A stretch of 49,859 nt of DNA from Saccoglossus kowalevskii (taxonomy: Eukaryota > Hemichordata > Enteropneusta > Harrimaniidae): the NCBI RefSeq assembly GCF_000003605.2, contig NW_003149656.1:1-49859 (forward strand). Reading direction: 5' to 3'. Numbering within the stretch: the stretch's first letter is position 1; every line of letters starts with the position of its first letter. The notes under the pieces were generated by a model. That model saw only the letters and a program-made list of their open reading frames with translations. It was not told the origin of the DNA and ran no database searches. Below are positions 1 to 49,859 of this stretch, piece by piece. The translations under genes were made by a program, and so were the position numbers.

Positions 1-41
1 AGTTCATCAGGAGGCTGTGGGTTCGAATTCCGCCGGAGATG
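1..41 (+). tRNA. tRNA-Arg, 3' part, cut by window edge
   Basis: This is the 3' end of an array tRNA: anticodon-stem end, variable loop, T arm with a GGTTCGA core and acceptor strand CGGAGAT followed by G. A T-run terminator follows at about 50-53. The T arm carries the CGCC variant also seen in the tRNA after copy 17. The first bases (AGTTCATCAG) differ from the usual AGTTATTCGG, so this copy may be damaged. Confidence 0.75.
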
Positions 42-398
42 GCTCTTCTTTTAAGTCACGATGGACATGTTTTGTTCAAATTGTCGTCAATAGTCTTAAC
101 ATATTGGACAGTTGTAGCTCTCCTCGGTACTAATAATTAGGAAAGACCGAGACCGTCGACTGAGATTAAAATATTCTGCACGGATTTTGATGTAATGAAC
201 CAAAAACAAAAATGGCTACTAATGGTATAAAAAGCCAACTGATTGTAGCGATACTAGGTGTTTGATAAGTGTTCTACACGAGCCTTTGTAAGATCAACCA
301 AAATAAAAAAATAATTACCTAATTCCATCAACATACATGTCCTTGCTTATCCCCAACGTCTACATGGAATGACGTTGAATGCTCTTTAACATGTTATT

Positions 399-1030
399 GA
401 AGCACCGTCACTCGACAAATGTTGGTGAGTTGAAACATAATCAACCAGAACAATCACAGAGTTAGTGAGTTTTCACAACCCGCGGATTATTAATTAGCAT
501 TCCAATTGTTAACACATTTGCCAATAGTTAACACATTTGCCACGATATTAGAAAGCCGGCATTTTTGAAAGAAAAGCAGTTCTCTATTGGCTTGTTTTGT
601 TCAATTTAACGTCAGTCTTCTGTCCGAATTAAACAGCAGTATCTTACCTAAGTGTCAATAATTAAAGAACACCAAAGAGAGAAGAGCGTCGGATGAGATT
701 TATAATTCCATACACATTTTGAAATGGTATACTCATTAATAAACACAACAAAATCGCCGCAGCCAGTAGACGTTTTTTTTTGTTTTGTCGAAGCGCCATC
801 ACTCGGTGAATACCGGCAAGTTCAATCATCAACAGCATTACACATCCGAGTTCCTGTGTCTTTTCACGTTATATGGAGTGTTAATTGGCATAACAACACT
901 GCGAGTTAACACATTTGTAGCGCAAGTAAACAGACGGCATTTTACAGAAGGGGGCGGCAATCCATTGACAAAGTTTTCTTGAATATCCTTACAAATGCGA
1001 AAATTGGTATAGGAATTCGAAACTATAAAT
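399..1030 (+). repeat. Ancient internal duplication in the spacer (blocks A and B)
   Basis: Block A starts with GAAGCACCGTCACTCG at 399 and block B with GAAGCGCCATCACTCG at 790. Both continue in the same order: a TTTTCACG motif, GTTAACACATTTG, a GCCGGCATTTTT/GACGGCATTTTA motif, and a CTATTGG/CCATTGA-T-rich segment. The offset is about 390 bases. The blocks are clearly diverged, so this duplication is much older than the spread of the array. Confidence 0.7.
508..541 (+). repeat. 15-base direct repeat, 19-base period, in block A
   Basis: GTTAACACATTTGCC occurs at 508-522 and again at 527-541, and a third related copy GTTAACACATTTG lies in block B near 904. The motif recurs at the same place in nearly every unit, sometimes with an A for the first G. 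It could be a binding site for a regulator, possibly a homeodomain protein because of its TTAA core, but no function can be shown here. Confidence 0.6.
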
Positions 1031-1102
1031 CAACCAAAACATACCACATGTGTATCATTGCTATACGCTTTCTCGTCCCATGCGTATCGTATAAAGAATA
1101 CT

Positions 1103-2050
1103 ATGGCATTACATATTGACAACACCCATTTTACAGCCAATGTTATGTTGAACTTATTACCGGTGTTAGATATTGCTGGTCGGTTTGATTGGAAGAATGT
1201 CTGCGGTTACGTAGATGGTAAATCGCACAGCAAAGGTAAGTAAATGTGCTCTACTTTAAATAATTATGTCTCACCGAATTAACTTCAAAATGGATTATAG
1301 TGGTTTAGGTCACGTAATGTTGTATCACGATTGCTACAGACACAAATATGTGTTTTTTTTATTTTTACAGGTAGTTATGTTGGCAGGAAATCAAGTCGCT
1401 ATATCTACAGCGAGACACAGTCGGTTTTATTAGAAGTAATATTTACAACTACTACGGAGTATCTAAATCGCGACATGCGCAAGCGTATCGCCATAATTAC
1501 CAACTTATCGGAAAAGTCAATTATGGTAAGTGAGAGCATTATGTATGCACCAAAGTATGTTATAATGTAAGCGAACAGTTTCTTGTTGTTCATTATACAA
1601 TAATCTATTTTATTCACTTTTCAGAAGTGGTTTCAGAATCGTCGGGGTCAAAAACGGAGGCAAGAACGGAAAAGAGATGCCGTGTTGTATGCTAAGCACC
1701 ATCAAGCACCAATACAAAAGTTGAAAGAATCGACGACGCGTTTTCCGTCCGTGCGAAGTCGAGGAATATCAGTGGACACTCGACTTGATGTCCTACCAGC
1801 AACGCCTTCCCTCAGTGAATATATTGGTGTTCCACAATCCAGTAGTACACCAAGGCATTGTAGTGATACGAAGATACAAAATTGCAGTACACATTCCAGT
1901 GGTATCCTGACAGACGTCTATCAAAGTGAAATAGAAATATGTAGTACACCTTGTAAAGACGTGTCATCAGATTTGTCATTTAATGGAATTACTGATTTAG
2001 ATCGTACTCTGTGTCCATTAGTCATTTGCGAAGCTTCATATTCTGTTTGA
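1103..2050 (+). CDS. Homeobox protein, array copy 1
   Basis: Predicted nuclear DNA-binding transcription factor of 237 residues. Coding exons are 1103-1235, 1371-1525 and 1625-2050; both introns start GTAAG and end ACAG or TCAG. The ATG is the first in frame after a TAG at 1010. The homeodomain spans residues 50-110: L65 and F69 in helix 1, Y75-L76, L90-S91-E92, then helix 3 with W98-F99, Q100, N101, R102 and R103 (the WFQNRR signature, Q at homeodomain position 50). F69 to W98 is 29 residues against the usual 28, giving a 61-residue domain. A basic tail (106-113) may be a nuclear localisation signal. The rest is Ser/Thr/Cys-rich with no recognised domain and no OAR motif. The intron between homeodomain positions 46 and 47 suggests PRD-class descent, but no orthologue is recognised. 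Residue 144 is Ile here, Lys in all other copies. Confidence 0.85.
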
Positions 2051-2100
2051 GAAAAGCATTTATTCTTGGTTAGTCATTTTAATTTCGTGTACATAATACG

Positions 2101-2122: not shown

Positions 2123-2237
2123 AATACATATTGTGTATTCAATTATGAGTCAAGATCGAAAGGAACAGTGTGATCTGGTCAAACGTTGTGATGTAACAAA
2201 TAAAAATACCTTGCATACAAAGCTGGCCATATGCAGT

Positions 2238-2322
2238 GTCTCCGTGGCGCAACGGATAGCGCGTCGGACTTCTAGTTGAAACAGTTATTCGGAGGCTGTG
2301 GGTTCGAATCCCACCGGAGATG
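2238..2322 (+). tRNA. tRNA-Arg(UCU) with 12-base intron, after copy 1
   Basis: Cloverleaf read by eye: acceptor GTCTCCG with CGGAGAT (first pair G-U), discriminator G, D stem GCGC/GCGC, anticodon stem TCGGA/TTCGG, anticodon TCT at 2271-2273, intron 2275-2286, T arm GTGGG TTCGAAT CCCAC. The A box (TGGCGCAACGG) and B box (GGTTCGAATCC) match consensus, and a TTTT terminator follows near 2331. The mature length of 73 and the intron after position 37 match eukaryotic tRNA-Arg(UCU) genes. It would decode AGA and, by wobble, AGG. Confidence 0.92.
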
Positions 2323-3385
2323 GCTCTTCTTTTAAGTCACGATGGACATGTTTTGTTCAAATTGTCGTCAATAGTCTTAACATATTGGACAGTTGTAGCT
2401 CTCCTCGGTACTAATAATTAGGAAAGACCGAGACCGTCGACTGAGATTAAAATATTCTGCATGCATTTTGATGGAATGAACCAATATAAAAAAATGGCTA
2501 CTAATGGTATAAAAAGCCAACTGATTGTAGCAATACTAGGTGTTTGATATGTGTTCTACACGAGCCTTTGTAAGATCAACCGAAATATGAAAAAAATTAC
2601 CTAATTCCATCAACATACATGTCCTTGCTTATCCCCAACGTCTACATGGAATGACGTTGAATGCTCTTTAACATGTTATTGAAGCACCGTCACTCGACAA
2701 ATGTTGGTGAGTTGAAACATAATCAACCAGAACAATCACAGAGTTAGTGAGTTTTCACGACCCGCGGATTATTAATTAGCATTCCAATTGTTAACACATT
2801 TGCCAATAGTTAACACATTTGCCACGATATTAGAAAGCCGGCATTTTTGAAAGAAAAGCAGTTCTCTATTGGCTTGTTTTGTTCAATTTAACGTCAGTCT
2901 TCTGTCCGAATTAAACAGCAGTATCTTACCTAAGTGTCAATAATTAAAGAACACCAAAGAGAGAAGAGCGTCGGATGAGATTTATAATTCCATACACATT
3001 TTGAAATGGTATACTCATTAATAAACACAACAAAATCGCCGCAGCCAGTAGACGTTTTTTTTTTGTTTTGTCGAAGCGCCATCACTCGGTGAATACCGGC
3101 AAGTTCAATCATCAACAGCATTACACATCCGAGTTCCTGTGTCTTTTCACGTTATATGGAGTGTTAATTGGCATAACAACACTGCGAGTTAACACATTTG
3201 TAGCGCAAGTAAACAGACGGCATTTTACAGAAGGGGGCGGCAATCCATTGACAAAGTTTTCTTGAATATCCTTACAAATGCGAAAATTGGTATAGGAATT
3301 CGAAACTATAAATCAACCAAAACATACCACATGTGTATCATTGCTATACGCTTTCTCGTCCCATGCGTATCGTATAAAGAATACT
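2323..3385 (+). promoter_or_regulatory. Spacer and promoter region of copy 2
   Basis: No gene was found. Upstream TATAAAAAG is at 2508-2516 and core TATAAA at 3307-3312. Blocks A and B are both present. The sequence is almost identical to the spacer of copy 12 (25843-26905), including a CTGCATGCATTTT variant shared only by those two. Confidence 0.6.
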
Positions 3386-4333
3386 ATGGCATTACATATT
3401 GACAACACCCATTTTACAGCCAATGTTATGTTGAACTTATTACCGGTGTTAGATATTGCTGGTCGGTTTGATTGGAAGAATGTCTGCGGTTACGTAGATG
3501 GTAAATCGCACAGCAAAGGTAAGTAAATGTGCTCTACTTTAAATAATTATGTCTCACCGAATTAACTTCAAAATGGATTATAGTGGTTTAGGTCACGTAA
3601 TGTTGTATCACGATTGCTACAGACACAAATATGTGTTTTTTTTATTTTTACAGGTAGTTATGTTGGCAGGAAATCAAGTCGCTATATCTACAGCGAGACA
3701 CAGTCGGTTTTATTAGAAGTAATATTTACAACTACTACGGAGTATCTAAATCGCGACATGCGCAAGCGTATCGCCATAATTACCAACTTATCGGAAAAGT
3801 CAATTATGGTAAGTGAGAGCATTATGTATGCACCAAAGTATGTTATAATGTAAGCGAACTGTTTCTTGTTGTTCATTATACAATAATCTATTTTATTCAC
3901 TTTTCAGAAGTGGTTTCAGAATCGTCGGGGTCAAAAACGGAGGCAAGAACGGAAAAGAGATGCCGTGTTATATGCTAAGCACCATCAAGCACCAATACAA
4001 AAGTTGAAAGAATCGACGACGCGTTTTCCGTCCGTGCGAAGTCGAGGAAAATCAGTGGACACTCGACTTGATGTCCTACCAGCAACGCCTTCCCTCAGTG
4101 AATATATTGGTGTTCCACAATCCAGTAGTACACCAAGGCATTGTAGTGATACGAAGATACAAAATTGCAGTACACATTCCAGTGGTATCCTGACAGACGT
4201 CTATCAAAGTGAAATAGAAATATGTAGTACATCTTGTAAAGACGTGTCATCAGATTTGTCATTTAATGGAATTACTGATTTAGATCGTACTCTGTGTCCA
4301 TTAGTCATTTGCGAAGCTTCATATTCTGTTTGA
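3386..4333 (+). CDS. Homeobox protein, array copy 2
   Basis: Intact 237-residue copy with coding exons 3386-3518, 3654-3808 and 3908-4333 and canonical splice sites. The homeodomain is the common form (G at homeodomain position 54, E at 60). The only change from the majority protein is Pro205 to Ser in the C-terminal tail. It is nearly identical to copy 1 along its full length, including introns and upstream region, so these two are among the most recently separated neighbours. Confidence 0.85.
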
Positions 4334-4520
4334 GAAAAGCATTTATTCGTGGTTAGTCATTTTAATTTCGTGTACATAATACGTTATAATAAAATATAAA
4401 TAAAAAATACATATTGTGTATTCAATTATTAGTCAAGATCGAAAGGAACAGTGTGATCTGGTCAAACGTTGTGATGTAAAAATTAAAAATACCTTGCATA
4501 CGAAGCAGGCGATATGTAGT

Positions 4521-4605
4521 GTCTCCGTGGTGCAACGGATAGCGCGTCGGACTTCTAGTTGAAACAGTTATTCGGAGGCTGTGGGTTCGAATCCCACTGG
4601 AGATG
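4521..4605 (+). tRNA. tRNA-Arg(UCU), after copy 2
   Basis: Same fold, anticodon and 12-base intron as the tRNA at 2238. Two changes are tolerated by G-U pairing: C11 to T in the D stem and C66 to T at the base of the acceptor stem. Probably still functional. Confidence 0.87.
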
Positions 4606-5698: not shown

Positions 5699-6646
5699 AT
5701 GGCATTACATATTGACAACACCCATTTTACAGCCAATGTTATGTTGAACTTATTACGGGTGTTAGATATTGCTGGTCGGTTTGATTGGAAGAATGTCTGC
5801 GGTTACGTAGATGGTAAATCGCACAGCAAAGGTAAGTAAATGTGCTCTACTTTAAATAATTATGTCTCACCGAATTAACTTCAAAATGGATTATAGTGGT
5901 TTAGGTCACGTAATGTTGTATCACGATTGCTACTGACACAAATATGTGTTTTTTTTATTTTTACAGGTAGTTATGTTGGCAGGAAATCAAGTCGCTATAT
6001 CTACAGCGAAACACAGTCGGTTTTATTAGAAGTAATATTTACAACTACTACGGAGTATCTAAATCGCGACATGCGCTAGCGTATCGCCATAATTACCAAC
6101 TTATCGGAAAAGTCAATTATGGTAAGTGAGAGCATTATGTATGCACCAAAGTATGTTATAATGTAAGCGAACTGTTTCTTGTTGTTCATTATACAATAAT
6201 CTATTTTATTCACTTTTCAGAAGTGGTTTCAGAATCGTCGGGGTCAAAAACGGAGGCAAGAACGGAAAAGAGATGCCGTGTTATATGCTAAGCACCATCA
6301 AGCACCAATACAAAAGTTGAAAGAATCGACGACGCGTTTTCCGTCCGTGCGAAGTCGAGGAAAATCAGTGGACACTCGACTTGATGTCCTACCAGCAACG
6401 CCTTCCCTCAGTGAATATATTGGTGTTCCACAATCCAGTAGTACACCAAGGCATTGTAGTGATACGAAGATACAAAATTGCAGTACACATTCCAGTGGTA
6501 TCCTGACAGACGTCTATCAAAGTGAAATAGAAATATGTAGTACACCTTGTAAAGACGTGTCATCAGATTTGTCATTTAATGGAATTAATGATTTAGATCG
6601 TACTCTGTGTCCATTAGTCATTTGCGAAGCTTCATATTCTGTTTGA
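5699..6646 (+). pseudogene. Homeobox protein, array copy 3, nonsense in homeodomain
   Basis: Exons would be 5699-5831, 5967-6121 and 6221-6646 with good splice sites, but codon 82 is TAG (6077-6079) where other copies have AAG. Translation would stop inside helix 2 before the recognition helix, so no DNA-binding protein is expected. Other changes are Pro20 to Arg and Thr219 to Asn. The rest of the frame is still open, so the stop is probably recent, or an error in the sequence, given the indel-rich spacer just upstream. Confidence 0.8.
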
Positions 6647-6833: not shown

Positions 6834-6918
6834 GTCTCCGTGGCGCAACGGATAGCGCGTCGGACTTCTAGTTGAAACAGTTATTCGGAGGCTGTGGGTT
6901 CGAATCCCACCGGAGATG
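6834..6918 (+). tRNA. tRNA-Arg(UCU), first of pair after copy 3
   Basis: Consensus copy with no change in stems, anticodon or A and B boxes. It is the left member of a pair spaced 365 bases apart. The downstream T-run is interrupted here (CTTCATTTAAG instead of CTTCTTTTAAG), which leaves only TTT and may weaken RNA polymerase III termination. Confidence 0.9.
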
Positions 6919-7198
6919 GCTCTTCATTTAAGTCACGATGGACATGTTTTGTTCAAATTGTCGTCAATAGTCTTAACATATTGGAAAGTTGTAGCTCTCC
7001 TCGGTACTAATAATTAGGAAAGACCGAGACCGTCGACTGAGATTAAAATATTCTGCACGCATTTTGATGGAATGAACCAATATAAAAAAAATGGCTACCA
7101 ATGGTATAAAAAGCCAACTGGTTGTAGCGATACAAGGTGTTTGGTGTTGTGATGTAACAAATAAAAATATCTTGCATATGAAGCAGGCGGTATGCTGT

Positions 7199-7283
7199 GT
7201 CTTCGTGGCGCAACGGATAGCGCGTCGGACTTCTAGTTGAAACAGTTATTCGGAGGCTGTGGGTTCGAATCCCACCGGAGATG
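7199..7283 (+). tRNA. tRNA-Arg(UCU), second of pair after copy 3
   Basis: Right member of the duplicated tRNA pair. The acceptor strand is GTCTTCG, so one C-G pair becomes U-G; otherwise it matches consensus. Its 5' flank is a junction in which spacer sequence (GGTGTTTG) runs directly into the normal tRNA upstream flank (GTTGTGATGTAA), marking the end of the 365-base duplication. Confidence 0.88.
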
Positions 7284-8339: not shown

Positions 8340-9286
8340 ATGGCATTGCATATTGACAACACCCATTTTACAGCCAATGTTATGTTGAACTTATTACGGG
8401 TGTTAGATACTGCTGGTCGGTTTGATTGGAAGAATGTCTGCGGTTACGTAGATGGTAAATCGCACAGCAAAGGTAAGTAAAGGTGCTCTACTTTAAATAA
8501 TTATGTCTCACCGAATTAACTTCAAAATGGATTATAGTGGTTTAGGTCACGTAATGTTGTATCACGATTGCTACAGACACAAATATGTCTTTTTTTATTT
8601 TTACAGGTAGTTATGTTGGCAGGAAATCAAGTCGCTATATCTACAGCGAAACACAGTCGGTTTTATTAGAAGTAATATTTACAACTACTACGGAGTATCT
8701 AAATCGCGACATGCGCAAGCGTATCGCCATAATTACCAAATTATCGGAAAAGTCAATTATGGTAAGTGAGAGCATTATGTATGCACCAAAGTATGTTATA
8801 ATGTAAGGGAACAGTTTCTTGTTGTTCATTATACAATAATCTATTTTATTCACTTTTCAGAAGTGGTTTCAGAATCGTCGGGGTCAAAAACGGAGGCAAG
8901 AACGGAAAAGAGATGCCGTGTTATATGCTAAGCACCATCAAGCACCAATACAAATGTTGAAAGAATCGACGACGCGTTTTCCGTCCGTGCGAAGTCGAGG
9001 AAAATCAGTGGACACTCGACTTGATGTCCTACCAGCAACGCCTTCCCTCAGTGAATATATTGGTGTTCCACAATCCAGTAGTACACCAAGGCATTGTAGT
9101 GATACGAAGATACAAAATTGCAGTACACATTCCAGTGGTATCCTGACAGACGTCTATCAAAGTGAAATAGAAATATGTAGTACACCTTGTAAAGACGTGT
9201 CATCAGATTTGTCATTTAATGGAATTACTGATTTAGATCGTACTCTGTGTCCATTAGTCATTTGCGAAGCTTCATATTCTGTTTGA
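8340..9286 (+). CDS. Homeobox protein, array copy 4
   Basis: Intact 237-residue copy; exons 8340-8472, 8607-8761 and 8861-9286. It differs from the majority at Pro20 to Arg, Ile24 to Thr, Asn89 to Lys (homeodomain position 39, between helices 2 and 3) and Lys128 to Met. Asn89 to Lys is shared with copy 15, and Pro20 to Arg with copies 3 and 16. The WFQNRR helix is unchanged. Two tRNA genes follow. Confidence 0.83.
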
Positions 9287-9473: not shown

Positions 9474-9558
9474 GTCTCCGTGGCGCAACGGATAGCGCGT
9501 CGGACTTCTAGTTGAAACAGTTATTCGGAGGCTGTGGGTTCGAATCCCACCGGAGATG
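9474..9558 (+). tRNA. tRNA-Arg(UCU), first of pair after copy 4
   Basis: Consensus copy with intact stems, TCT anticodon, 12-base intron and both internal promoter boxes, followed by a TTTT run. Confidence 0.92.
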
Positions 9559-9838
9559 GCTCTTCTTTTAAGTCACGATGGACATGTTTTGTTCAAATTG
9601 TCGTCAATAGTCTTACCATATTGGAAAGTTGTAGCTCTCCTCGGTACTAATAATTAGGAAAGACCGAGACCGTCGACTGAGATTAAAATATTCTGCACGC
9701 ATTTTGATGGAATGAACCAATATAAAAAAAATGGCTACCAATGGTATAAAAAGCCAACTGGTTGTAGCGATACAAGGTGTTTGGTGTTGTGATGTAACAA
9801 ATAAAAATATCTTGCATATGAAGCAGGCGGTATGCTGT

Positions 9839-9923
9839 GTCTTCGTGGCGCAACGGATAGCGCGTCGGACTTCTAGTTGAAACAGTTATTCGGAGGCTGT
9901 GGGTTCGAATCCCACCGGAGATG
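9839..9923 (+). tRNA. tRNA-Arg(UCU), second of pair after copy 4
   Basis: Carries the GTCTTCG acceptor variant, as at 7199. The 2.64-kb units of copies 3-4 and 4-5 are near duplicates of each other, so this tRNA and the one at 7199 probably share a recent origin. Confidence 0.88.
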
Positions 9924-10981: not shown

Positions 10982-11928
10982 ATGGCATTACATATTGACA
11001 ACTCCCATTTTACAGCCAATGTTATGTTGAACATATTACCGGTGTTAGATATTGCTGGTCGGTTTGATTGGAAGAATGTCTGCGGTTACGTAGATGGTAA
11101 ATCGCACAGCAAAGGTAAGTAAATGTGCTCTACTTTAAATAATTATGTCTCACCGAATTAACTTCAAAATGGATTATAGTGGTTTAGGTCACGTAATGTT
11201 GTATCACGATTGCTACAGACACAAATATGTGTTTTTTTATTTTTACAGGTAGTTATGTTGGCAGGAAATCAAGTCGCTATATCTACAGCGAGACACAGTC
11301 GGTTTTATTAGAAGTAATATTTACAACTACTACGGAGTATCTAAATCGCGACATGCGCAAGCGTATCGCCATAATTACCAACTTATCGGAAAAGTCAATT
11401 ATGGTAAGTGAGAGCATTATGTATGCACCAAAGTATGTTATAATGTAAGCGAACTGTTTCTTGTTGTTCATTATACAATAATCTATTTTATTCACTTTTC
11501 AGAAGTGGTTTCAGAATCGTCGGGGTCAAAAACGGAGGCAAGAACGGAAAAGAGATGCCGTGTTATATGCTAAGCACCATCAAGCACCAATACAAAAGTT
11601 GAAAGAATCGACGACGCGTTTTCCGTCCGTGCGAAGTCGAGGAAAATCAGTGGACACTCGACTTGATGTCCTACCAGCAACGCCTTCCCTCAGTGAATAT
11701 ATTGGTGTTCCACAATCCAGTAGTACACCAAGGCATTGTAGTGATACGAAGATACAAAATTGCAGTACACATTCCAGTGGTATCCTGACAGACGTCTATC
11801 AAAGTGAAATAGAAATATGTAGTACACCTTGTAAAGACGTGTCATCAGATTTGTCATTTAATGGAATTACTGATTTAGATCGTACTCTGTGTCCATTAGT
11901 CATTTGCGAAGCTTCATATTCTGTTTGA
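10982..11928 (+). CDS. Homeobox protein, array copy 5
   Basis: Intact 237-residue copy; exons 10982-11114, 11249-11403 and 11503-11928. Changes from the majority are Thr8 to Ser and Leu18 to Ile, both in the N-terminal region outside the homeodomain. Thr8 to Ser is shared only with its right-hand neighbour, copy 6. The homeodomain and the C-terminal tail are the consensus form. Confidence 0.85.
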
Positions 11929-12115: not shown

Positions 12116-12200
12116 GTCTCCGTGGCGCAACGGATAGCGCGTCGGACTTCTAGTTGAAACAGTTATTCGGAGGCTGTGGGTTCGAATCCCACCGGAAATG
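12116..12200 (+). tRNA. tRNA-Arg(UCU), after copy 5, acceptor mismatch
   Basis: Anticodon, intron and internal boxes are normal, but the 3' acceptor strand is CGGAAAT instead of CGGAGAT. This turns the C3-G70 pair into a C-A mismatch, so the product may be unstable. Confidence 0.82.
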
Positions 12201-14408: not shown

Positions 14409-14493
14409 GTCTCCGTGGCGCAACGGATAGCGCATCGGACTTCTAGTTGAAAAAGTTATTCGGAGGCTGTGGGTTCGAATCCCACCGGAGATG
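14409..14493 (+). tRNA. tRNA-Arg(UCU), after copy 6
   Basis: Folds normally with anticodon TCT. G26 is A and the intron reads TTGAAAAAGTT instead of TTGAAACAGTT. Neither change breaks a stem. The terminator run is TTTTT. Confidence 0.88.
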
Positions 14494-35430: not shown

Positions 35431-35515
35431 GTCTCCGTGGCGCAACGAATAGCGCGTCGGACTTCTAGTTGAAAAAGTTATTCGGAGGCTGTGGGTTCGA
35501 ATCCCACCGGAGATG
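35431..35515 (+). tRNA. tRNA-Arg(UCU), first of pair after copy 15
   Basis: Same AACGAATAGC D-loop change as at 32946; all stems pair and the anticodon is TCT. Confidence 0.85.
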
Positions 35516-35795
35516 GCTCTTCTTTTAAGTCACGATGGACATGTTTTGTTCAAATTGTCGTCAATAGTCTTAACATATTGGACAGTTGTAGCTCTCCTCG
35601 GTACTAATAATTAGGAAAGACCGAGACCGTCGACTGAGATTAAAATATTCTGCACGCATTTTGATGGAATGAACCAATATAAAAAAAATGGCTACCAATG
35701 GTATAAAAAGCCAACTGGTTGTAGCTATACAAGGTGTTTGGTGATGTGATGTAACAAATAAAAATATCTTGCATATGAAGCAGGCGGTATGCTGT

Positions 35796-35880
35796 GTCTC
35801 CATGGCGCAACGGATAGCTCGTCGGACTTTTAGTTGAAAAAGTTATTCGGAGGCTGTGGGTTCGAATCCCACCGGAGATG
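35796..35880 (+). tRNA. tRNA-like gene with UUU anticodon, second of pair after copy 15
   Basis: The anticodon triplet at 35829-35831 is TTT instead of TCT, a lysine-type anticodon on an arginine tRNA body. The same change creates a TTTT run (35828-35831) inside the gene that could stop RNA polymerase III early. The A7-C66 mismatch and the G24 to T D-stem break are also present. Most likely a pseudogene. Confidence 0.75.
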
Positions 35881-36936: not shown

Positions 36937-37883
36937 ATGGCATTGCATATTGACAACACCCATTTTACAGCCAATGTTATGTTGAACTTATTACGGGTGT
37001 TAGATATTGCTGGTCGGTTTGATTGGAAGAATGTCTGCGATTACGTAGACGGTAAATCGCACAGCAAAGGTAAGTAAATGTGCTCTACTTTAAATAATTA
37101 TGTCTCACCGAATTAACTTCAAAATGGATTATAGTGGTTTAGGTCACGTAATGTTGTATCACGATTGCTACAGACACAAATATGTGTTTTTTTATTTTTA
37201 CAGGTAGTTATGTTGGCAGGAAATCAAGTCGCTATATCTACAGCGAGACACAGTCGGTTTTATTAGAAGTAATATTTACAACTACTACGGAGTATCTAAA
37301 TCGCGACATGCGCAAGCGTATCGCCATAATTACCAACTTATCGGAAAAGTCAATTATGGTAAGTGAGAGCATTATGTATGCACCAAAGTATGTTATAATG
37401 TAAGCGAACAGTTTCTTGTTGTTCATTATACAATAATCTATCTTATTCACTTTTCAGAAGTGGTTTCAGAATCGTCGGGGTCAAAAACGGAGGCAAGAAC
37501 GGAAAAGAGATGCCGTGTTATATGCTAAGCACCACCAAGCACCAATACAAAAGTTGAAAGAATCGACGACGCGTTTTCCGTCCGTGCGAAGTCGAGGAAA
37601 ATCAGTGGACACACGACTTGATGTCCTACCAGCAACGCCTTCCCTCAGTGAATATATTGGTGTTCCACAATCCAGTAGTACACCAAGGCATTGTAGTGAT
37701 ACGAAGATACAAAATTGCAGTACACATTCCAGTGGTATCCTGACAGACGTCTATCAAAGTGAAATAGAAATATGTAGTACACCTTGTAAAGACGTGTCAT
37801 CAGATTTGTCATTTAATGGAATTACTGATTTAGATCGTACTCTGTGTCCATTAGTCATTTGCGAAGCTTCATATTCTGTTTGA
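36937..37883 (+). CDS. Homeobox protein, array copy 16
   Basis: Intact 237-residue copy; exons 36937-37069, 37204-37358 and 37458-37883. Changes are Pro20 to Arg (shared with copies 3 and 4) and Gly35 to Asp (unique), both N-terminal to the homeodomain. The homeodomain and C-terminal tail are the majority form. The pyrimidine tract of intron 2 has one C (CTATCTTATTCAC). Confidence 0.85.
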
Positions 37884-38070: not shown

Positions 38071-38155
38071 GTCTCCGTGGCGCAACGGATAGCGCGTCGG
38101 ACTTCTAGTTGAAACAGTTATTCGGAGGCTGTGGGTTCGAATCCCACCGGAGATG
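38071..38155 (+). tRNA. tRNA-Arg(UCU), after copy 16
   Basis: Consensus copy with intact stems, TCT anticodon, 12-base intron and terminator. Confidence 0.92.
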
Positions 38156-39197: not shown

Positions 39198-40149
39198 ATG
39201 GCATTACATATTGACAACACCCATTTTACAGCCAATGTTATGTTGAACATATTACCGGTGTTAGATATTGCTGGTCGGTTTGATTGGAAGAATGTCTGCG
39301 GTTACGTAGATGGTAAATCGCACAGCAAAGGTAAGTAAATGTGCTTTACTTTAAATAATTATGTCTCACCGAATTAACTTCAAAATGGATTATAGTGGTT
39401 TAGGTCACGTAATGTTGTATCACGATTGCTACAGACACAAATATGTGTTTTTTTATTTTTACAGGTAGTTATGTTGGCAGGAAATCAAGTCGCTATATCT
39501 ACAGCGAGACACTGTCGGTTTTATTAGAAGTAATATTTACAACTACTACGGAGTATCTAAATCGCGACATGCGCAAGCGTATCGCCATAATTACCAACTT
39601 ATCGGAAAAGTCAATTATGGTAAGTGAGAGCATTATGTATGCACCAAAGTATGTTATAATGTAAGCGAACAGTTTCTTGTTGTTCATTATATTATACAAT
39701 AATCTATTTTATTCACTTTTCAGAAGTGGTTTCAGAATCGTCGGAGTCAAAAACGGAGGCAAAAACGGAAAAGAGATGCCGTGTTATATGCTAAGCACCA
39801 TCAAGCACCAATACAAAAGTTGAAAGAATCGACGACGCGTTTTCCGTCCGTGCGAAGTCGAGGAAAATCAGTGGACACTCGACTTGATGTCCTACCAGCA
39901 ACGCCTTCCCTCAGTGAATATATTAGTGTTACACAATCTAGTAGTACACCAAGGCATTGTAGTGATACGAAGATACAAAATTGCAGTACACATTCCAGTG
40001 GTATCCTGACAGACGTCTATCAAAGTGAAATAGAAATATGTAGTACACCTTGTAAAGACGTGTCATCAGATTTGTCATTTAATGGAATTACTTATTTAGA
40101 TCGTACTGTGTGCCCATTAGTCATTTGCGAAGCTTCATATTCTGTTTGA
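39198..40149 (+). CDS. Homeobox protein, array copy 17, most divergent intact copy
   Basis: Intact 237-residue copy; exons 39198-39330, 39465-39619 and 39724-40149. Homeodomain position 54 is Ser and position 60 is Lys, a combination seen only here. Further changes are Leu18 to Ile, Gln61 to Leu in helix 1, Gly164 to Ser, Pro166 to Thr, Asp220 to Tyr and Leu225 to Val. Intron 2 has the ATTATATTATAC form of copies 6, 9 and 21. It looks like an intermediate or recombinant between the Ser54 and Ile54 groups. Confidence 0.84.
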
Positions 40150-40338: not shown

Positions 40339-40423
40339 GTCTCCGTGGCGCAACGGATAGCGCGTCGGACTTCTAGTTGAAACAGTTATTCGGAGGTTGT
40401 GGGTTCGAATCCCGCCGGAGATG
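40339..40423 (+). tRNA. tRNA-Arg(UCU), after copy 17
   Basis: T-arm change CCCGC (U-G pair) and C48 to T in the variable region; other parts are consensus. The CGCC signature is shared with the partial tRNA at the left window edge, and the spacer that follows also resembles the one at 42-300. Confidence 0.9.
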
Positions 40424-41483: not shown

Positions 41484-41867
41484 ATGGCATTACATATTGA
41501 CAACACCCATTTTACAGCCAATGTTATGTTGAACATATTACCGGTGTTAGATATTGCTGGTCGGTTTGATTGGAAGAATGTCTGTGGTTACGTAGATGGT
41601 AAATCGCACAGCAAAGGTAAGTAAATGTGCTTTACTTTAAATAATTATGTCTCACCGAATTAACTTCAAAATGGATTATAGTGGTTTAGGTCACGTAATG
41701 TTGTATCACGATTGCTACAGACACAAATATGTGTTTTTTTTATTTTTACAGGTAGTTATGTTGGCAGGAAATCAAGTCGCTATATCTACAGCGAGACACG
41801 GTATAAAAAGCCAACTGATTGTAGCGATACTAGGTGTTTGATATGTGTTCTACACGAGCCTTTGTAA
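41484..41867 (+). pseudogene. Homeobox protein, array copy 18, truncated and fused to spacer
   Basis: Exon 1 (41484-41616) and the start of exon 2 (from 41752) are normal, but at about 41799 exon 2 runs into spacer sequence that starts GGTATAAAAAGCC. The rest of the homeobox, intron 2, exon 3, the tRNA and about 200 bases of the next spacer are missing, about 1.09 kb in all. The frame stays open to TAA at 41865-41867, giving an 82-residue product with only the first 11 or so homeodomain residues. It cannot bind DNA as a homeodomain. Confidence 0.85.
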
Positions 41868-42674: not shown

Positions 42675-43622
42675 ATGGCATTGCATATTGACAGCACCCA
42701 TTTTACAGCCAATGTTATGTTGAACTTATTACCGGTGTTAGATATTGCTGGTCGGTTTGATTGGAAGAATGTCTGCGGTTACGTAGATGGTAAATCGCAC
42801 AGCAAAGGTAAGTAAATGTGCTCTACTTTAAATAATTATGTCTCACCGAATTAACTTCAAAATGGATTATAGTGGTTTAGGTCACGTAATGTTGTATCAC
42901 GATTGCTACAGACACAAATATGTTTTTTTTTTATTTTTACAGGTAGTTATGTTGGCAGGAAATCAAGTCGCTATATCTACAGCGAGACACAGTCGGTTTT
43001 ATTAGAAGTAATATTTACAACTACTACGGAGTATCTAAATCGCGACATGCGCAAGCGTATCGCCATAATTACCAACTTATCGGAAAAGTCAATTATGGTA
43101 AGTGAGAGCATTATGTATGCACCAAAGTATGTTATAATGTAAGCGAACAGTTTCTTGTTGTTCATTATACAATAATCTATTTTATTCACTTTTCAGAAGT
43201 GGTTTCAGAATCGTCGGGGTCAAAAACGGAGGCAAGAACGGAAAAGAGATGCCGTGTTATATGCTAAGCACCATCAAGCACCAATACAAAAGTTGAAAGA
43301 ATCGACGACGCGTTTTCCGTCCGTGCGAAGTCGAGGAAAATCAGTGGACACTCGACTTGATGTCCTACCAGCAACGCCTTCCCTCAGTGAATATATTGGT
43401 GTTCCACAATCCAGTAGTACACCAAGGCATTGTAGTGATACGAAGATACAAAATTGCAGTACACATTCCAGTGGTATCCTGACAGACGTCTATCAAAGTG
43501 AAATAGAAATATGTAGTACACCTTGTAAAGACGTGTCATCAGATTTGTCATTTAATGGAATTACTGATTTAGATCGTACTCTGTGTCCATTAGTCATTTG
43601 CGAAGCTTCATATTCTGTTTGA
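42675..43622 (+). CDS. Homeobox protein, array copy 19
   Basis: Intact 237-residue copy; exons 42675-42807, 42943-43097 and 43197-43622. Asn7 to Ser is the only change from the majority protein. It follows the truncated copy 18 and precedes an expanded cluster of four tRNA genes, so both of its flanks are rearranged although the gene itself is intact. Confidence 0.86.
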
Positions 43623-43809: not shown

Positions 43810-43894
43810 GTCTCCGTGGCGCAACGGATAGCGCGTCGGACTTCTAGTTGAAACAGTTATTCGGAGGCTGTGGTTTCGAATCCCACCGGAGATG
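43810..43894 (+). tRNA. tRNA-Arg(UCU), first of four after copy 19
   Basis: G53 is T (GTGGT TTCGAAT CCCAC), which breaks the last T-stem pair and alters the B box. Other arms are consensus. Transcription by RNA polymerase III may be reduced. Confidence 0.82.
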
Positions 43895-44173
43895 GCTCTT
43901 CTTTTAAGTCACGATGGACATGTTTTGTTCAAATTGTCGTCAATAGTCTTAACATATTGGACAGTTGTAGCTCTCCTCGGTACTAATAATTAGGAAAGAC
44001 CGAGACCGTCGACTGAGATTAAAATATTCTGCACGCATTTTGATGGAATGAACCAATATAAAAAAATGGCTACCAATGGTATAAAAAGCCAACTGGTTGT
44101 AGCGATACAAGGTGTTTGGTGATGTGATGTAACAAATAAAAATATCTTGCATATGAAGCAGGCGGTATGCTGT

Positions 44174-44258
44174 GTCTCCATGGCGCAACGGATAGCTCGT
44201 CGGACTTCTAGTTGAAAAAGTTATTCTGAGGCTGTGGGTTCGAATCCCACCGGAGATG
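44174..44258 (+). tRNA. tRNA-Arg-like gene, second of four after copy 19, degraded
   Basis: Anticodon TCT is kept. G7 is A, G24 is T, and G42 is T in the anticodon stem (TTCTG), so three stems carry a mismatch. Related to the decayed copies at 33311 and 35796. Confidence 0.72.
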
Positions 44259-44641
44259 GCTCTGATTTTAAGTCACGATGGATTTGTTTTATTAAAATTG
44301 TCGTCAATGGTCTTAACATATTGGACAGTTATAGCTCTCCTCGGTGCTAATAATTAGGAAAGACCGAGACCGTCGACTGAGATTAAAATATTCTACACGG
44401 ATTTTGATTTAATGAACCAATATAAAAAAAATGGCTACTAATGGTATAAAAAGCCAACTGATTGTAGCGATACTAGGTGTTTGGTGTTGTGATGTAACAA
44501 ATAAAAATATCTTGCATATGAAGCAGGCGGTATGCTGTGTCTCAATGGTATGCTGTGTCTCGAAAGGAACAGTGTGATCTGGTCAAACGTTGTGATGTAA
44601 AAAATAAAAATACCTTGCATACGAATCTGGCGATATGCAGT
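44259..44641 (+). other. Rearranged tRNA flank with tRNA 5' fragments
   Basis: This holds normal tRNA 3' flank with TATAAAAAG at about 44446-44454, then a second-tRNA 5' flank ending in a broken tRNA start (GTCTCAATGG at 44539). A short repeat of TATGCTGTGTCTC follows, and the sequence then joins GAAAGGAACAGTG, which normally lies about 80 bases before a tRNA. No gene was seen. Confidence 0.65.
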
Positions 44642-44726
44642 GTCTCCGTGGCGCAACGGATAGCGCGTCGGACTTCTAGTTGAAACAGTTATTCGGAGGC
44701 TATGGGTTCGAATCCCACCGGAGATG
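44642..44726 (+). tRNA. tRNA-Arg(UCU), third of four after copy 19
   Basis: Arms are consensus except G49 to A (ATGGG), an A-C mismatch at the base of the T stem. The variant is shared with 45007. The 3' flank reads GAGATGCTTCTTCTTTTAAGTCGCG, with TTTT kept. Confidence 0.85.
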
Positions 44727-45006
44727 CTTCTTCTTTTAAGTCGCGATGGATTTGTTTTGTTCAAATTGTCGTCAATAGTCTTAACATATTGGACAGTTGT
44801 AGCTCTCCTCGGTACTAATAATTAGGAAAGACCGAGACCTTCGACTGAGATTAAAATATTCTGCACGCATTTTGATGGAATGAACCAATATAAAAAAAAT
44901 GGCTTCCAATGGTATAAAAAGCCAACTGGTTGTAGCGATACAAGGTGTTTGGTGTTGTGATGTAACAAATAAAAATATCTTGCATATGAAGCAGGCGGTA
45001 TGCTGT

Positions 45007-45091
45007 GTCTCCATGGCGCAACGGATAGCGCATCGGACTTCTAGTTGAAAAAGTTATTCGGAGGCTATGGGTTCGAATCCCACCGGAGATG
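45007..45091 (+). tRNA. tRNA-Arg-like gene, fourth of four after copy 19
   Basis: Anticodon TCT. It combines A7 (mismatch with C66), A26 and A49 (mismatch with C65). The D stem is intact, unlike 44174. Function is doubtful. Confidence 0.76.
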
Positions 45092-46149: not shown

Positions 46150-47097
46150 ATGGCATTACATATTGACAACACCCATTTTACAGCCAATGTTATGTTGAAC
46201 TTATTACCGGTGTTAGATATTGCTGGTCGGTTTGATTGGAAGAATGTCTGCGGTTACGTAGATGGTAAATCGCACAGCAAAGGTAAGTAAATGTGCTCTA
46301 CTTTAAATAATTATGTCTCACCGAATTAACTTCAAAATGGATTATAGTGGTTTAGGTCACGTAATGTTGTATCACGATTGCTACAGACACAAATATGTGT
46401 TTTTTTTATTTTTACAGGTAGTTATGTTGGCAGGAAATCAAGTCGCTATATCTACAGCGAGACACAGTCGGTTTTATTAGAAGTAATATTTACAACTACT
46501 ACGGAGTATCTAAATCGCGACATGCGCAAGCGTATCGCCATAATTACCAACTTATCGGAAAAGTCAATTATGGTAAGTGAGAGCATTATGTGTGCACCAA
46601 AGTATGTTATAATGTAAGCGAACAGTTTCTTGTTGTTCATTATACAATAATCTATTTTATTCACTTTTCAGAAGTGGTTTCAGAATCGTCGGGGTCAAAA
46701 ACGGAGGCAAGAACGGAAAAGAGATGCCGTGTTATATGCTAAGCACCATCAAGCACCAATACAAAAGTTGAAAGAATCGACGACGCGTTTTCCGTCCGTG
46801 CGAAGTCGAGGAAAATCAGTGGACACTCGACTTGATGTCCTACCAGCAACGCCTTCCCTCAGTGAATATATTGGTGTTCCACAATCCAGTAGTACACCAA
46901 GGCATTGTAGTGATACGAAGATACAAAATTGCAGTACACATTCCAGTGGTATCCTGACAGACGTCTATCAAAGTGAAATAGAAATATGTAGTACACCTTG
47001 TAAAGACGTGTCATCAGATTTGTCATTTAATGGAATTACTGATTTAGATCGTACTCTGTGTCCATTAGTCATTTGCGAAGCTTCATATTCTGTTTGA
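46150..47097 (+). CDS. Homeobox protein, array copy 20, consensus protein
   Basis: Intact 237-residue copy; exons 46150-46282, 46418-46572 and 46672-47097. No residue departs from the majority sequence, so this is the best single reference for the family in this window: homeodomain 50-110 with Gln50, Asn51, Gly54, Gln55 and Glu60. Differences are confined to non-coding positions such as TGTGCACC in intron 2 and TTTGTGGATAG in the 3' untranslated region. Confidence 0.87.
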
Positions 47098-47284: not shown

Positions 47285-47369
47285 GTCTCCGTGGCGCAAC
47301 GGATAGCGCGTCGGACTTCTAGTTGAAACAGTTATTCGGAGGCTGTGGGTTCGAATCCCACCGGAGATG
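47285..47369 (+). tRNA. tRNA-Arg(UCU), first of pair after copy 20
   Basis: Consensus copy, complete with intron, internal boxes and TTTT terminator. Confidence 0.92.
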
Positions 47370-47649
47370 GCTCTTCTTTTAAGTCACGATGGACATGTTT
47401 TGTTCAAATTGTCGTCAATAGTCTTAACATATTGGACAGTTGTAGCTCTCCTCGGTACTAATAATTAGGAAAGACCGAGACCTTCGACTGAGATTAAAAT
47501 ATTCTGCACGCATTTTGATGGAATGAACCAATATAAAAAAAATGGCTACCAATGGTATAAAAAGCCAACTGGTTGTAGCGATACAAGGTGTTTGGTGTTG
47601 TGATGTAACAAATAAAAATATCTTGCATATGAAGCAGGCGGTATGCTGT

Positions 47650-47734
47650 GTCTTCGTGGCGCAACGGATAGCGCGTCGGACTTCTAGTTGAAAAAGTTAT
47701 TCGGAGGCTGTGGGTTCGAATCCCACCGGAGATG
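47650..47734 (+). tRNA. tRNA-Arg(UCU), second of pair after copy 20
   Basis: Has the GTCTTCG acceptor strand (U-G pair), like 7199 and 9839, and the TTGAAAAAGTT intron form. Otherwise intact. Confidence 0.88.
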
Positions 47735-48796
47735 GTTCTTCTTTTAAGTCACGATGGATTTGTTTTGTTAAAATCGTCGTCAATGGTCTTAACATGTTGG
47801 ACAGTTGTAGCTCTCCTCGGTGCTAATAATTAGAAAGACCGAGACCGTCGACTGAGATTAAAATATTCTACACGGATTTTGATGTAATGAACCAAATACA
47901 AAAATGGCTACTAATGGTATAAAAAGCCAACTGATTGTAGCGATACTAGGTGTTTGATATATGTTCTACACGAGCCTTAGTAAGATCAACCGAAATATAT
48001 AAATAATTACCTAATTCCATCAACATACATGTCCTTGCTTATCCCCAACGTCTACATGGAATGACGTTGAATGCTCTTTAACATGTTGTTGAAGCACCGT
48101 CACTCGGTAAATGTTGGTGAGTTGAAACATAATCAACCGGAACAATCACAGAGTTAGTGAGTTTTCACGATCCGCGGATTATTAATTAGCATTCCAATTG
48201 TTAACACATTTGCCAAAAGTTAACACATTTGCCATGATATTAGAAAGCCGGCATTTTTGAAAGAAAAGCAGTTCTCTATTGGATTGTTTTGTTCAATTTA
48301 ACGTCAGTGTTCTGTCCGAATTAAACAGCAGTATCTTACCTATGTATCAATAATTAAAGAACACCAACGAGAGAAGAGCGTCGGATGAGATTTATAATTC
48401 CATACACATTTTGAAATGGTATACTCATTAATAAACACAACAAAATCGCCGCAGCCAGTAGACGTTTTTTTTTTTGTTTTGTCGAAGCGCCATCACTCGG
48501 TGAATACCGGCAAGTTCAATCATCAACAGCATTACACATCCGAGTTCCTGTGTCTTTTCACGTTATATGGAGTGTTAATTGGCATAACAACACTGCGAGT
48601 TAACACATTTATAGCGCAAGTAAACAGACGGCATTTTACAGAAAGGGGCGGCAATCCATTGACAAAGTTTTCTTGAATATCCTTACAAATGCGAAAATTG
48701 GTATAAGAATTCGAAACTATAAACCAACCAAAACATACCACATGTGTATCATTGCTACACGCTTTCTCGTCCCATGTGTATCGTATAAAGAATACT
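47735..48796 (+). promoter_or_regulatory. Spacer and promoter region of copy 21
   Basis: No gene was found. Upstream TATAAAAAG is at 47918-47926 and core TATAAA at 48718-48723. The T-run in block B is among the longest in the window (near 48466). Confidence 0.6.
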
Positions 48797-49776
48797 ATGG
48801 CATTACATATTGACAACACCCATTTTACAGCCAATGTTATGTTGAACTTATTACCGGTGTTAGATATTGCTGGTCGGTTTGATTGGAAGAATGTCTGCGG
48901 TTTCGTAGATGGTAAATCGCACAGCAAAGATAAGTAAATGTGCTCTACTTTAAATAATTATGTCTCACCGAATTAACTTCAAAATGGATTATAGTGGTTT
49001 AGGTCACGTAATGTTGTATCACGATTGCTACAGACACAAATATGTTTTTTTTTTATTTTTACAGGTAGTTATGTTGGCAGGAAATCAAGTCGCCATATCT
49101 ACAGCGAGACACAGTCGGTTTTATTAGAAGTAATATTTACAACTACTACAGAGTATCTAAATCGCGACATGCGCAAGCGTATCGCCATAATTACCAACTT
49201 ATCGGAAAAGTCAATTATGGTAAGTGAGAGCATTATGTATGCACCAAAGTATGTTATAATGTAAGCGAACAGTTTCTTGTTGTTCATTATATTATACAAT
49301 AATCTATTTTATTCACTTTTCAGAAGTGGTTTCAGAATCGTCGGATTCAAAAACGGAGGCAAAAACGGAAAAGAGATGCCGTGTTATATGCTAAGCACCA
49401 TCAAGCACCAATACAAAAGTTGAAAGAATCGACGACGCGTTTTCCGTCCGTGCGAAGTCGAGGAAAATCAGTGGACACTCGACTTGATGTCCTACCAGCA
49501 ACGCCTTCCCTCAGTGAATATATTAGTGTTCCACAATCTAGTAGTACACCAAGGCATTGTAGTGATACGAAGATACAAAATTGCAGTACACATTCCAGTG
49601 GTATCCTGACAGACATCTATCAAAGTGAAATAGAAATATGTAGTACACCTTGTAAAGACGTGTCATCAGATTTGTCATTTAATGGAATTACTGATTTAGA
49701 TCGTACGTACTCTGTGTCCATTAGTCATTTGCGAAGCTTCATATTCTGTTTGAGAAAAGCATTTATTCGTGGTTAG
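48797..49776 (+). pseudogene. Homeobox protein, array copy 21, donor loss and frameshift
   Basis: Exon 1 is 48797-48929, exon 2 49065-49219 and exon 3 starts at 49324. The first donor is ATAAGT instead of GTAAGT, so intron 1 is unlikely to be removed normally; reading through it gives a stop after SKDK at 48937. Exon 3 carries a 4-base duplication (GTACGTAC near 49705) that changes the last 13 or so residues and moves the stop from 49753 to 49776. The homeodomain is the Ile54/Lys60 type of copies 6 and 9, and Tyr36 is Phe. Confidence 0.82.
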
Positions 49777-49859
49777 TCATTCTAATTTCGTGTACATAAT
49801 ACGTTATAATAAAATATAAATTTTGTTATTCAAAATACATATTGTGTATTCAATTATGA
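49777..49859 (+). other. 3' flank of copy 21, cut by window edge
   Basis: AATAAA at about 49808 is followed by the TTTTGTTATTC variant of the copy 6/9/21 group. The expected tRNA would lie just beyond the window. Confidence 0.6.

Follow-up and report, generated by a model that had tools for sequence, protein, structure and literature searches.

A tandem repeat unit holding a homeobox gene and a tRNA-Arg gene in Saccoglossus kowalevskii

What kind of locus repeats a homeobox gene and a tRNA gene together along an entire contig, and which of the two forms its core? The question is raised by contig NW_003149656.1 of the hemichordate Saccoglossus kowalevskii, analysed here over its full 49,859 nucleotides (the window). 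The order and the code of the mitochondrial genes likewise indicate a hemichordate. Our answer, held with modest confidence, is that the contig is probably a tRNA-Arg(UCU) tandem array of the Hydractinia kind, in which the homeobox gene is a passenger.

Extent and anatomy of the array

The window is array from end to end (1..49859, plus strand, as are all features below). BLAST finds 21 homeobox copies (exon 1 21 times, exon 3 20 times), 20 of full length and one truncated; ARAGORN finds 29 whole tRNA genes, all on the plus strand, and Rfam likewise detects 29, whose scores of 34.6-56.6 bits all exceed its gathering threshold of 29, to which BLAST adds a fragment, the 3' part of a tRNA-Arg gene (10..43). 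An earlier note on this DNA had counted at least 21 homeobox and 29 whole tRNA genes, and had proposed a macrosatellite uniting an intron-bearing single-homeodomain gene with an intron-bearing tRNA-Arg gene; the counts are borne out, and the proposal is supported. Its assignment of all 29 tRNAs to arginine holds for the 27 that ARAGORN types as Arg(tct), but not for one typed Lys(ttt) and one with an odd anticodon loop. Similarly, the homeobox and tRNA-Arg(TCT) genes are indeed oriented head to tail throughout, but simple alternation is seen in 11 of the 20 gaps between adjacent homeobox genes, the other nine holding two tRNAs (seven gaps), four (one) or none (one).

The reference repeat unit spans 2283 bp (2237..4519). 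It begins with a tRNA-Arg(TCT) gene (2238..2322; Rfam 54.5 bits, also called by ARAGORN) whose anticodon loop is interrupted by a 12-nt intron; the gene possesses box A and box B and has a T-run behind it, the TTTT shortly 3' of the gene (2330..2333) being a likely Pol III terminator. Spacer A follows (2325..3384; pi 0.031 over 57 near-full-length copies) and includes, about 80 bp upstream of the ATG, a TATAAA (3307..3312) that is likely part of a Pol II promoter and whose 17-bp context is invariant in 48 of 57 copies. The homeobox gene consists of exon 1 (3386..3518), intron 1 (3519..3653), exon 2 (3654..3808), which encodes the homeodomain through position 46, intron 2 (3809..3907), and exon 3 (3908..4333) with KWFQNRR, the tail and the stop. 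Spacer B (4334..4519; pi 0.0195 over 60 near-full-length copies) closes the unit and contains AATAAA motifs, probably acting as poly(A)-type signals (4388..4404). What had been called near-identical introns and spacers amounts, against one reference unit, to 93-100% identity for introns and about 92-99% for full spacers, with exons at 97-100%.

Besides the reference copy, single tRNA-Arg genes recognized by Rfam lie at 4521..4605, 12116..12200, 14409..14493, 16689..16773, 18951..19035, 21250..21334, 25758..25842, 30668..30752 and 38071..38155, and the gene with the odd anticodon loop at 40339..40423 (ARAGORN, Rfam). Rfam pairs occupy 6834..7283 (6834-6918 and 7199-7283, 365 bp apart), 9474..9923 (9474-9558, 9839-9923), 23111..23560 (23111-23195, 23476-23560), 28041..28490 (28041-28125, 28406-28490), 32946..33395 (32946-33030, 33311-33395) and 47285..47734 (47285-47369, 47650-47734). 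A further pair, at 35431..35880, joins an Arg gene (35431-35515) to the one called Lys, anticodon TTT (35796-35880; ARAGORN, Rfam), and a run of four tRNA-Arg genes, starting at 43810, 44174, 44642 and 45007, fills 43810..45091 (Rfam). The spacer between paired tRNAs measures about 275 bp, as against about 2.2 kb, homeobox gene included, elsewhere; all 30 pairs have a tRNA-to-tRNA spacing of 360-366 bp and share a single junction. The 2.28-kb unit can be read as two parts, a 365-bp tRNA unit and a homeobox cassette of about 1.9 kb.

Beyond the window, five additional contigs are array end to end, 154,833 bp in all, and two large contigs run into array at their ends; pattern matches across the genome number 65 for the homeobox gene and 96 for the tRNA. 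Such copy number and identity exclude a chance origin of the array. Could a few real copies instead have been multiplied by misassembly or by unmerged haplotypes? The confinement of the array to six short contigs devoid of unique sequence, plus two contig ends, would fit, as would the closest pairs of homeobox copies, which differ by 0.1% within a contig and 0.2% between contigs. However, the average divergence between units is about 1.4% for the homeobox gene and 3% for spacer A, and none of the 313 matches of at least 3 kb within and between array contigs exceeds 99.3% identity; the contigs are therefore not plain duplicates of one another, and we regard such an artefact as extremely improbable.

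The homeobox gene and variation among its copies

An intact 237-residue frame with GT/AG at both introns is present in 16 of the 20 spliced full-length window copies, namely copies 1 (1103..2050), 2 (the reference, 3386..4333), 4 (8340..9286), 5 (10982..11928), 6 (13260..14212), 7 (15553..16501), 8 (17815..18763), 9 (20102..21053), 10 (21978..22923), 13 (29532..30480), 14 (31812..32758), 15 (34297..35243), 16 (36937..37883), 17 (39198..40149), 19 (42675..43622) and 20 (46150..47097). Premature stops interrupt copies 3 (5699..6646) and 11 (24623..25570), a frameshift copy 12 (26906..27853), and a broken donor plus frameshift copy 21 (48797..49753); with copy 18, truncated in exon 2 (41484..41802), this reproduces the 16 of 21 intact frames and splice sets of the earlier note. 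The protein matches the PF00046 profile at 42.8 bits (curated cut-off 22.9), has WFQNRR in its recognition helix, and contains one homeodomain (residues 51-108) with one extra residue, which rules out a DUX-type double homeobox. Its best relatives among solved homeodomains, all weak, are Hox-A13, PRH/HHEX, GSX2, OTX2, DUX4 and Hox-B13. PRD-class homeobox genes commonly carry a phase-0 intron that separates homeodomain position 46 from position 47, though such an intron also occurs outside that class; intron 2, in phase 0, splits the homeodomain at this very place (counted from W48).

Is the protein, then, what keeps the array? The main rival to our reading is a homeobox macrosatellite resembling D4Z4/DUX4 or mouse Dux, in which many fast-evolving copies would deliver a burst of a germ-line or early-embryo factor, silenced elsewhere, with the tRNAs as passengers or chromatin boundaries. 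Consistent with it, 43 of 58 near-full-length copies are intact, splice sites included, and TATA and poly(A)-type signals are retained in most copies. Stop codons are weakly depleted (2 premature stops in 58 copies against 7.1 expected, P=0.05), and pi falls from 0.031 in spacer A to 0.0137 in the gene and 0.0115 in the 110 bp upstream of it. Residue 104, which is homeodomain position 54 in the numbering anchored at W48, is frequently variant, with S or I in 15 of 58 copies; a tandem array of homeobox genes occurs at least once more in the same genome, with no tRNA in the portion read; and barrier activity is reported, in an extract of PMC4041453, for the mouse counterpart of the human 1q23.3 tRNA repeat. 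Against this rival stands the pattern of variation. The non-synonymous/synonymous ratio relative to neutral is 0.99 in 18 window copies, and in the 58 copies 106 amino-acid-altering changes accompany 30 silent ones (ratio to neutral 1.12, P=0.62), while pi in introns (0.009-0.017) is no higher than in exons (0.011-0.017). With a neutral amino-acid/silent ratio and introns that match exons in uniformity, protein-level selection, at which the earlier note had hinted, is unsupported. Furthermore, all tRNA-Arg(TCT) genes found lie in the array, which makes the tRNA an implausible candidate for a dispensable passenger. On balance, we consider a homeobox macrosatellite of this kind unlikely.

The near-neutral ratio would also suit a largely neutral composite satellite, built by amplification and unequal exchange, in which neither gene is selected for number and frames are open only because the copies are young. 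In keeping with this, 87 of 136 coding variants are private to one copy, and the mean distance between window copies, 0.0093-0.0133 at 1 to 11 steps apart, is nearly independent of their spacing. However, three genome-wide patterns found the tRNA family nowhere else and two other tRNA families are arrayed as well; the tRNA copies are therefore unlikely to be idle, and a largely neutral satellite appears decidedly unlikely.

The tRNA genes as the apparent core

In a genome-wide search with at most two mismatches, all 96 matches of the tRNA-Arg(TCT) pattern belonged to the array or its margin: the six array contigs account for 95, and the remaining one is on contig C4526, where it sits within array sequence; with a second pattern, allowing variable gaps, all 76 matches did so, and a pattern for an intron-less gene, which had no positive control, gave one match, with anticodon TTT. 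These three patterns, which a very divergent tRNA-Arg(UCU) gene could escape, revealed no tRNA-Arg(TCT) gene outside the array and its edges, and the genome searches made for the homeobox gene likewise located no copy beyond them. On the six array contigs, the 96 tRNA BLAST matches correspond to 85 ARAGORN tRNAs, of which 78 are Arg(tct) and seven have another or odd anticodon.

Tandem arrangement recurred in both further tRNA families tried. Arg(ACG) yielded 263 pattern matches, and among the 100 listed, 96 lie on contigs with at least three listed matches; a sample shows a 484-bp repeat with five tRNAs per 2.2 kb. Lys(CTT) yielded 16, of which 15 share a single contig, and its sample repeats itself in self-BLAST every 500-530 bp or so at 91-96% likeness, TRF, which covers periods up to 500 only, listing no repeat there. 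The homeobox motif is absent from both samples. The tRNA side thus looks like the core of the array, a role overlooked in the earlier note: the tRNA-Arg(TCT) genes found all lie here, and two other families are arrayed.

Our reading as a tRNA array with a homeobox passenger suggests an evolutionary scenario. Like the rDNA and 5S arrays, this one would provide its product, a single kind of tRNA, in many copies. An ancestral unit of about 365 bp, tRNA plus spacer, may have come first, with the tRNA pairs as its surviving trace; a piece of about 1.9 kb bearing the homeobox gene would then have landed in the spacer, and unequal exchange would have spread the enlarged unit. No outgroup polarises this order, and the 365-bp spacing could also arise by loss of the cassette. 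Selection, if any, would act mainly on tRNA dose, leaving the homeobox protein under little or no constraint; the passenger gene may nonetheless be transcribed. Several observations count against the passenger role: the intact majority of homeobox copies and their shortage of stops, residues 90-103, at the start of the recognition helix, with zero amino-acid change (P=0.002 for this stretch, 0.14 for such a stretch anywhere), the lower variation of gene and upstream 110 bp relative to spacer A, and the further homeobox array. The same applies to the tRNAs, which vary at least as much as the homeobox gene does (pi 0.018-0.022 for first and 0.041-0.044 for second tRNAs) and include the seven deviant anticodons.

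A bolder possibility, which we deem highly improbable, is that tRNA-Arg(UCU) dosage is physically locked to the dosage of a homeobox transcription factor, the Pol III gene serving as boundary between Pol II genes, and that a DUX-like early-embryo factor thereby arose outside mammals within an essential-tRNA array. If so, each unit gained would mean one more tRNA-Arg(UCU) gene and one more homeobox gene. 

All three tRNA families tried are arrayed in this deuterostome, one with a developmental-type gene in its unit. This offers a natural test of two things: the fate of a protein gene copied and homogenised for external reasons, and whether the homeobox genes of macrosatellites start as passengers.

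Relation to known tandem arrays

Arrays of tRNA genes and of homeobox genes are each already known, and a macrosatellite unit with both seems undescribed, no account of such a unit having been found in open-access full texts. The comparisons below refer to extracts of the cited papers. With D4Z4/DUX4, mouse Dux and DUXC (PMC3004920) the locus shares a tandemly repeated homeobox gene. DUXC is itself tandem and intron-bearing, with splice sites inside its homeoboxes, a precedent for tandem homeobox genes with introns. The DUX arrays differ in their double homeobox, where ours encodes a single homeodomain with an extra residue, in their occurrence in placental mammals, and in that the extract mentions no tRNA in the unit.

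Tandem tRNA arrays are termed unusual or uncommon beyond Entamoeba in extracts of PMC11067881 and PMC4041453. In Entamoeba (PMC2888827, PMC4041453) tRNA genes likewise form tandem repeat units, but the organism is a protist and the extracts mention no protein gene in the unit. The human 1q23.3 tRNA VNTR (PMC4041453) is, like the array here, a macrosatellite with tRNA genes in every unit, head to tail; its 7.3-kb unit is GC-rich, with several tRNAs, a CTCF site and, in the extract, no other transcript reported, whereas ours has 37-39% GC, as a rule a single tRNA-Arg gene or two, and a homeobox gene whose frame is open in most copies. In Hydractinia, tRNA and other RNA genes stand in tandem arrays (PMC11067881). 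That animal belongs to a different phylum, and the extract mentions no protein-coding gene in the spacer, where ours holds one of three exons. Common to both are many near-identical tRNA copies, evenly spaced and head to tail (here 29 in the window and 96 genome-wide), homogeneous spacers whose length ranges from hundreds of bases into the thousands (here about 275 bp or 2.2 kb), and further arrayed tRNA families in the same genome, here Arg(ACG) and Lys(CTT).

Composition and extent of the array

What is the array made of, and how far does it extend? In the window, ARAGORN, Rfam and BLAST agree with the earlier note on a head-to-tail alternation of 21 homeobox copies, 20 of them full length, with 29 whole tRNA genes, and add one tRNA fragment; all lie on the + strand. 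Its reading that frame and all splice sites are intact in 16 of the 21 homeobox genes likewise stands. The basic unit of 2283 bp (reference unit 2237..4519) consists of the tRNA, a spacer A of ~1060 bp, the homeobox gene of ~950 bp and a spacer B of 186 bp that leads to the next tRNA. The number of tRNAs between successive homeobox genes varies: among the 20 gaps in the window, 11 hold one, seven hold two, one holds four and one holds none. The window and five further contigs which are wholly array (C1193, C3844, C2584, C3211 and C4681) total 154,833 bp; across these six, the distance inside tRNA pairs is 360-366 bp in all 30 pairs, one additional tRNA-tRNA interval being 468 bp. Plain duplicates among the contigs were rejected, as no match exceeds 99.3% identity across 3 kb.

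Two larger contigs contain edges of the array. C1554 (576,650 bp) terminates in it, with the array start falling within intron 1, and C4526 (123,112 bp) does so with a tRNA flanked by spacer pieces, the gene being mostly absent. Both edges are left-hand and in the same orientation, and a comparison of the two flanks revealed no resemblance outside array sequence. Two such same-sided edges with unlike flanks suggest either two arrays or a single array with an inversion.

The tRNA of the reference unit agrees with the box A and box B consensus, is followed by a T-run and contains a 12-nt intron within the anticodon loop. ARAGORN predicts 85 tRNAs across the six contigs, namely 78 Arg(tct), three Lys(ttt), three Pyl(cta) and one undefined; one of the Lys(ttt) calls, which includes an 'intron' of 377 bases, lacks credibility. 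Altered anticodons are seen in the window tRNAs at 35796-35880 and 40339-40423, one of which reads TTT (Lys) in an Arg-type body. Genome-wide, a pattern from the D arm to the anticodon, with up to two mismatches, matches 95 times on the six contigs and once at the C4526 edge. BLAST likewise gives 96 tRNA matches on the six contigs, of which all but three entered the tRNA flank profiles. A second pattern, which allows variable gaps but no mismatch, matches 76 times, always on these contigs or at this edge, and an intron-less Arg(TCT) pattern yields a single match, with anticodon TTT; tRNA-Arg(UCU) genes of very different sequence could evade all three patterns.

The homeobox protein has 237 residues and a single homeodomain at residues 51-108 (42.8 bits), which exceeds the 57-position profile by one residue and is split between positions 46 and 47 by the phase 0 intron 2. 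Its relatives of solved structure are weak and mixed, comprising Hox-A13, PRH, GSX2, OTX2 and DUX4. Searches of the 572-Mb genome (4830 contigs, the window being bases 1-49859 of C3970) for a parent gene outside the array found none. In a DNA search, all 40 scored candidates out of 69 lie on array contigs. A 36-base pattern from exon 3, searched with three mismatches or fewer, has 65 matches, all on array contigs or at the array edge: 20 in the window, 44 on the five other contigs and one at the end of C1554. With exon 2 as protein, for which all 69 candidates were scored, 67 of the 68 reported matches are array or edge, the sole non-array match on C1050 being weak (38%, E=0.48) and containing a stop. 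A retrotransposed or processed origin of the homeobox gene was rejected, since both introns are kept in 20 of 20 full-length window copies, and retroelements of the small-RNA Helenus/Ajax type, weighed from the description in PMC10886601 alone, were dropped, as no LTR layout was noticed. Inspection by eye of the edges of the cassette, the ~1.9 kb stretch with the homeobox gene, gave no clear target-site duplication or terminal repeats.

Variation among the copies

Do the open frames reflect selection to keep the protein, as the earlier note had hinted? Our counts comprise 58 of the 66 gene matches on the six contigs, those covering at least 90% of the gene; the eight partial ones, at contig ends or truncated, were left out. 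Frame and splice sites are intact in 43 of the 58 copies, and 40 distinct proteins are found. We observe 103 missense, 2 nonsense, 1 stop loss and 30 silent changes, where the pooled mutation spectrum predicts 95.7, 7.1, 0.4 and 32.8, respectively. Amino-acid and silent changes are therefore at a neutral ratio, which takes away the support for such selection among the copies; the depletion of stops (2 against 7.1 expected, P=0.05) is the lone pointer to it, and no stronger than a hint. Residues 90-103 show no amino-acid change, the chance of such a gap somewhere being 0.14; as this gap in the recognition helix was noticed post hoc and loses significance when such stretches are sought anywhere in the protein, we rejected it as a mark of constraint. 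Variation is frequent at residues 104, 105 and 110. The common protein variants (window 3929-3949, and equivalent codons elsewhere) lie directly behind the WFQNRR motif. Residue 104 is homeodomain position 54, counted from W48, a position that can contact DNA in known homeodomains.

Along the unit, variation is uneven. Spacer pi was calculated from near-full-length BLAST pieces, 57 of 105 for spacer A and 60 of 88 for spacer B, so that the short pair spacers between tRNAs ~365 bp apart lie outside these figures. It amounts to 0.031 in spacer A and 0.0195 in spacer B, compared with 0.0137 in the homeobox gene, where exons (0.0113-0.0171) and introns (0.0092 and 0.0172) are alike. In the final 110 bp of spacer A, where a TATAAA is kept in at least 55 of the 57 copies, pi drops to 0.0115. 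As exons resemble introns and the low values include these upstream 110 bp, the lowered variation belongs to the entire gene region rather than to the protein, with repair, exchange or selection as candidate causes. In the window, neighbouring homeobox copies are hardly closer in sequence than distant ones; such a weak dependence of likeness on distance fits exchange across the array.

Origin of the unit and other arrays in the genome

We consider a tRNA array with a homeobox passenger the most likely reading, built on the common unit, the confinement of both genes to the array by the searches made, the neutral protein change and the existence of other tRNA arrays. An ancestral tRNA unit of 365 bp would have acquired a homeobox cassette of ~1.9 kb (2283 - 365), and unequal exchange would then have spread the enlarged unit; array size may have been maintained for tRNA supply, with the homeobox gene carried along. 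With one common junction and several common differences from the majority long spacer, the pair spacers look like a single lineage, representing either the ancestral state or a deletion.

For the tRNA side of this reading, two comparison families were tried, Arg(ACG) and Lys(CTT). The Arg(ACG) pattern has 263 matches, and among the 100 listed, 96 share their contig with two or more other listed matches; a 2.2-kb sample (C3521:500-2700) is a 484-bp tandem repeat with five tRNAs. Of 16 Lys(CTT) matches, 15 are on C4166 (129,674 bp), where a 2.2-kb sample (C4166:2400-4600) contains three genes at spacings of 502 and 527 bp. TRF, with a longest period of 500, listed no repeat in the latter sample; its self-BLAST gives repeats at the gene spacings, 91-96% alike across long stretches. 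As both families are arrayed, tandem arrays seem to be a usual form of tRNA genes in this genome. Neither sample contains a WFxNxR motif or a homeobox-gene match; what distinguishes the TCT array is its long unit containing a gene.

Speaking against a passenger, however, the tRNA is no more uniform than the homeobox gene, most homeobox frames are open, and the genome holds another tandem homeobox array, on C2714 (10,208 bp), where the 4.2 kb inspected (C2714:1-4200) contain no tRNA. This second array has six homeobox matches in alternating orientation, from two different homeobox genes at ~3.8-3.9 kb per pair, and C4084 has at its start (within C4084:1-1500) a stretch of 527 bp with 98% identity to it. 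Divergent homeobox genes occur elsewhere, with two matches on C837 and two on C472; the C472 pair is 77-80% alike and has an intron near the equivalent homeodomain position.

Source organism and known systems

Contig C4830 (17,037 bp) is mitochondrial; with its genes identified by visual inspection, nd5 adjoins cob. In COX1, nine ATA codons align to cattle I (5), V (3) and L (1), never to M, the single AAA codon is at K, and TGA is at W in seven of nine cases. In the account of PMC2697986, ATA=Ile is common to echinoderms and hemichordates, AAA=Asn is echinoderm-specific, and adjacent nd5 and cob are found in hemichordates and Xenoturbella. Gene order and code thus make a hemichordate the likely source. 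COX1 is encoded on the other strand from the adjacent ND1 and COX2, a placement from which the usual deuterostome mitochondrial order differs.

How does the array compare with known systems? Older work reportedly dealt with tDNA repeats of Xenopus laevis. In 2010, Entamoeba was given as the only known source of tRNA tandem repeats (PMC2888827); animal tandem tRNA arrays have been described in Hydractinia (PMC11067881), and human 1q23.3 is presented as a tRNA macrosatellite (PMC4041453). Mammals have tandem homeobox genes, with DUXC containing introns (PMC3004920). Text searches of open-access full texts brought up no fitting description of a unit that joins a homeobox gene to a tRNA gene. As far as these sources describe them, the Hydractinia arrays and human 1q23.3 share with the array here the tandem arrangement with tRNA genes, whereas here a homeobox gene lies inside the unit.
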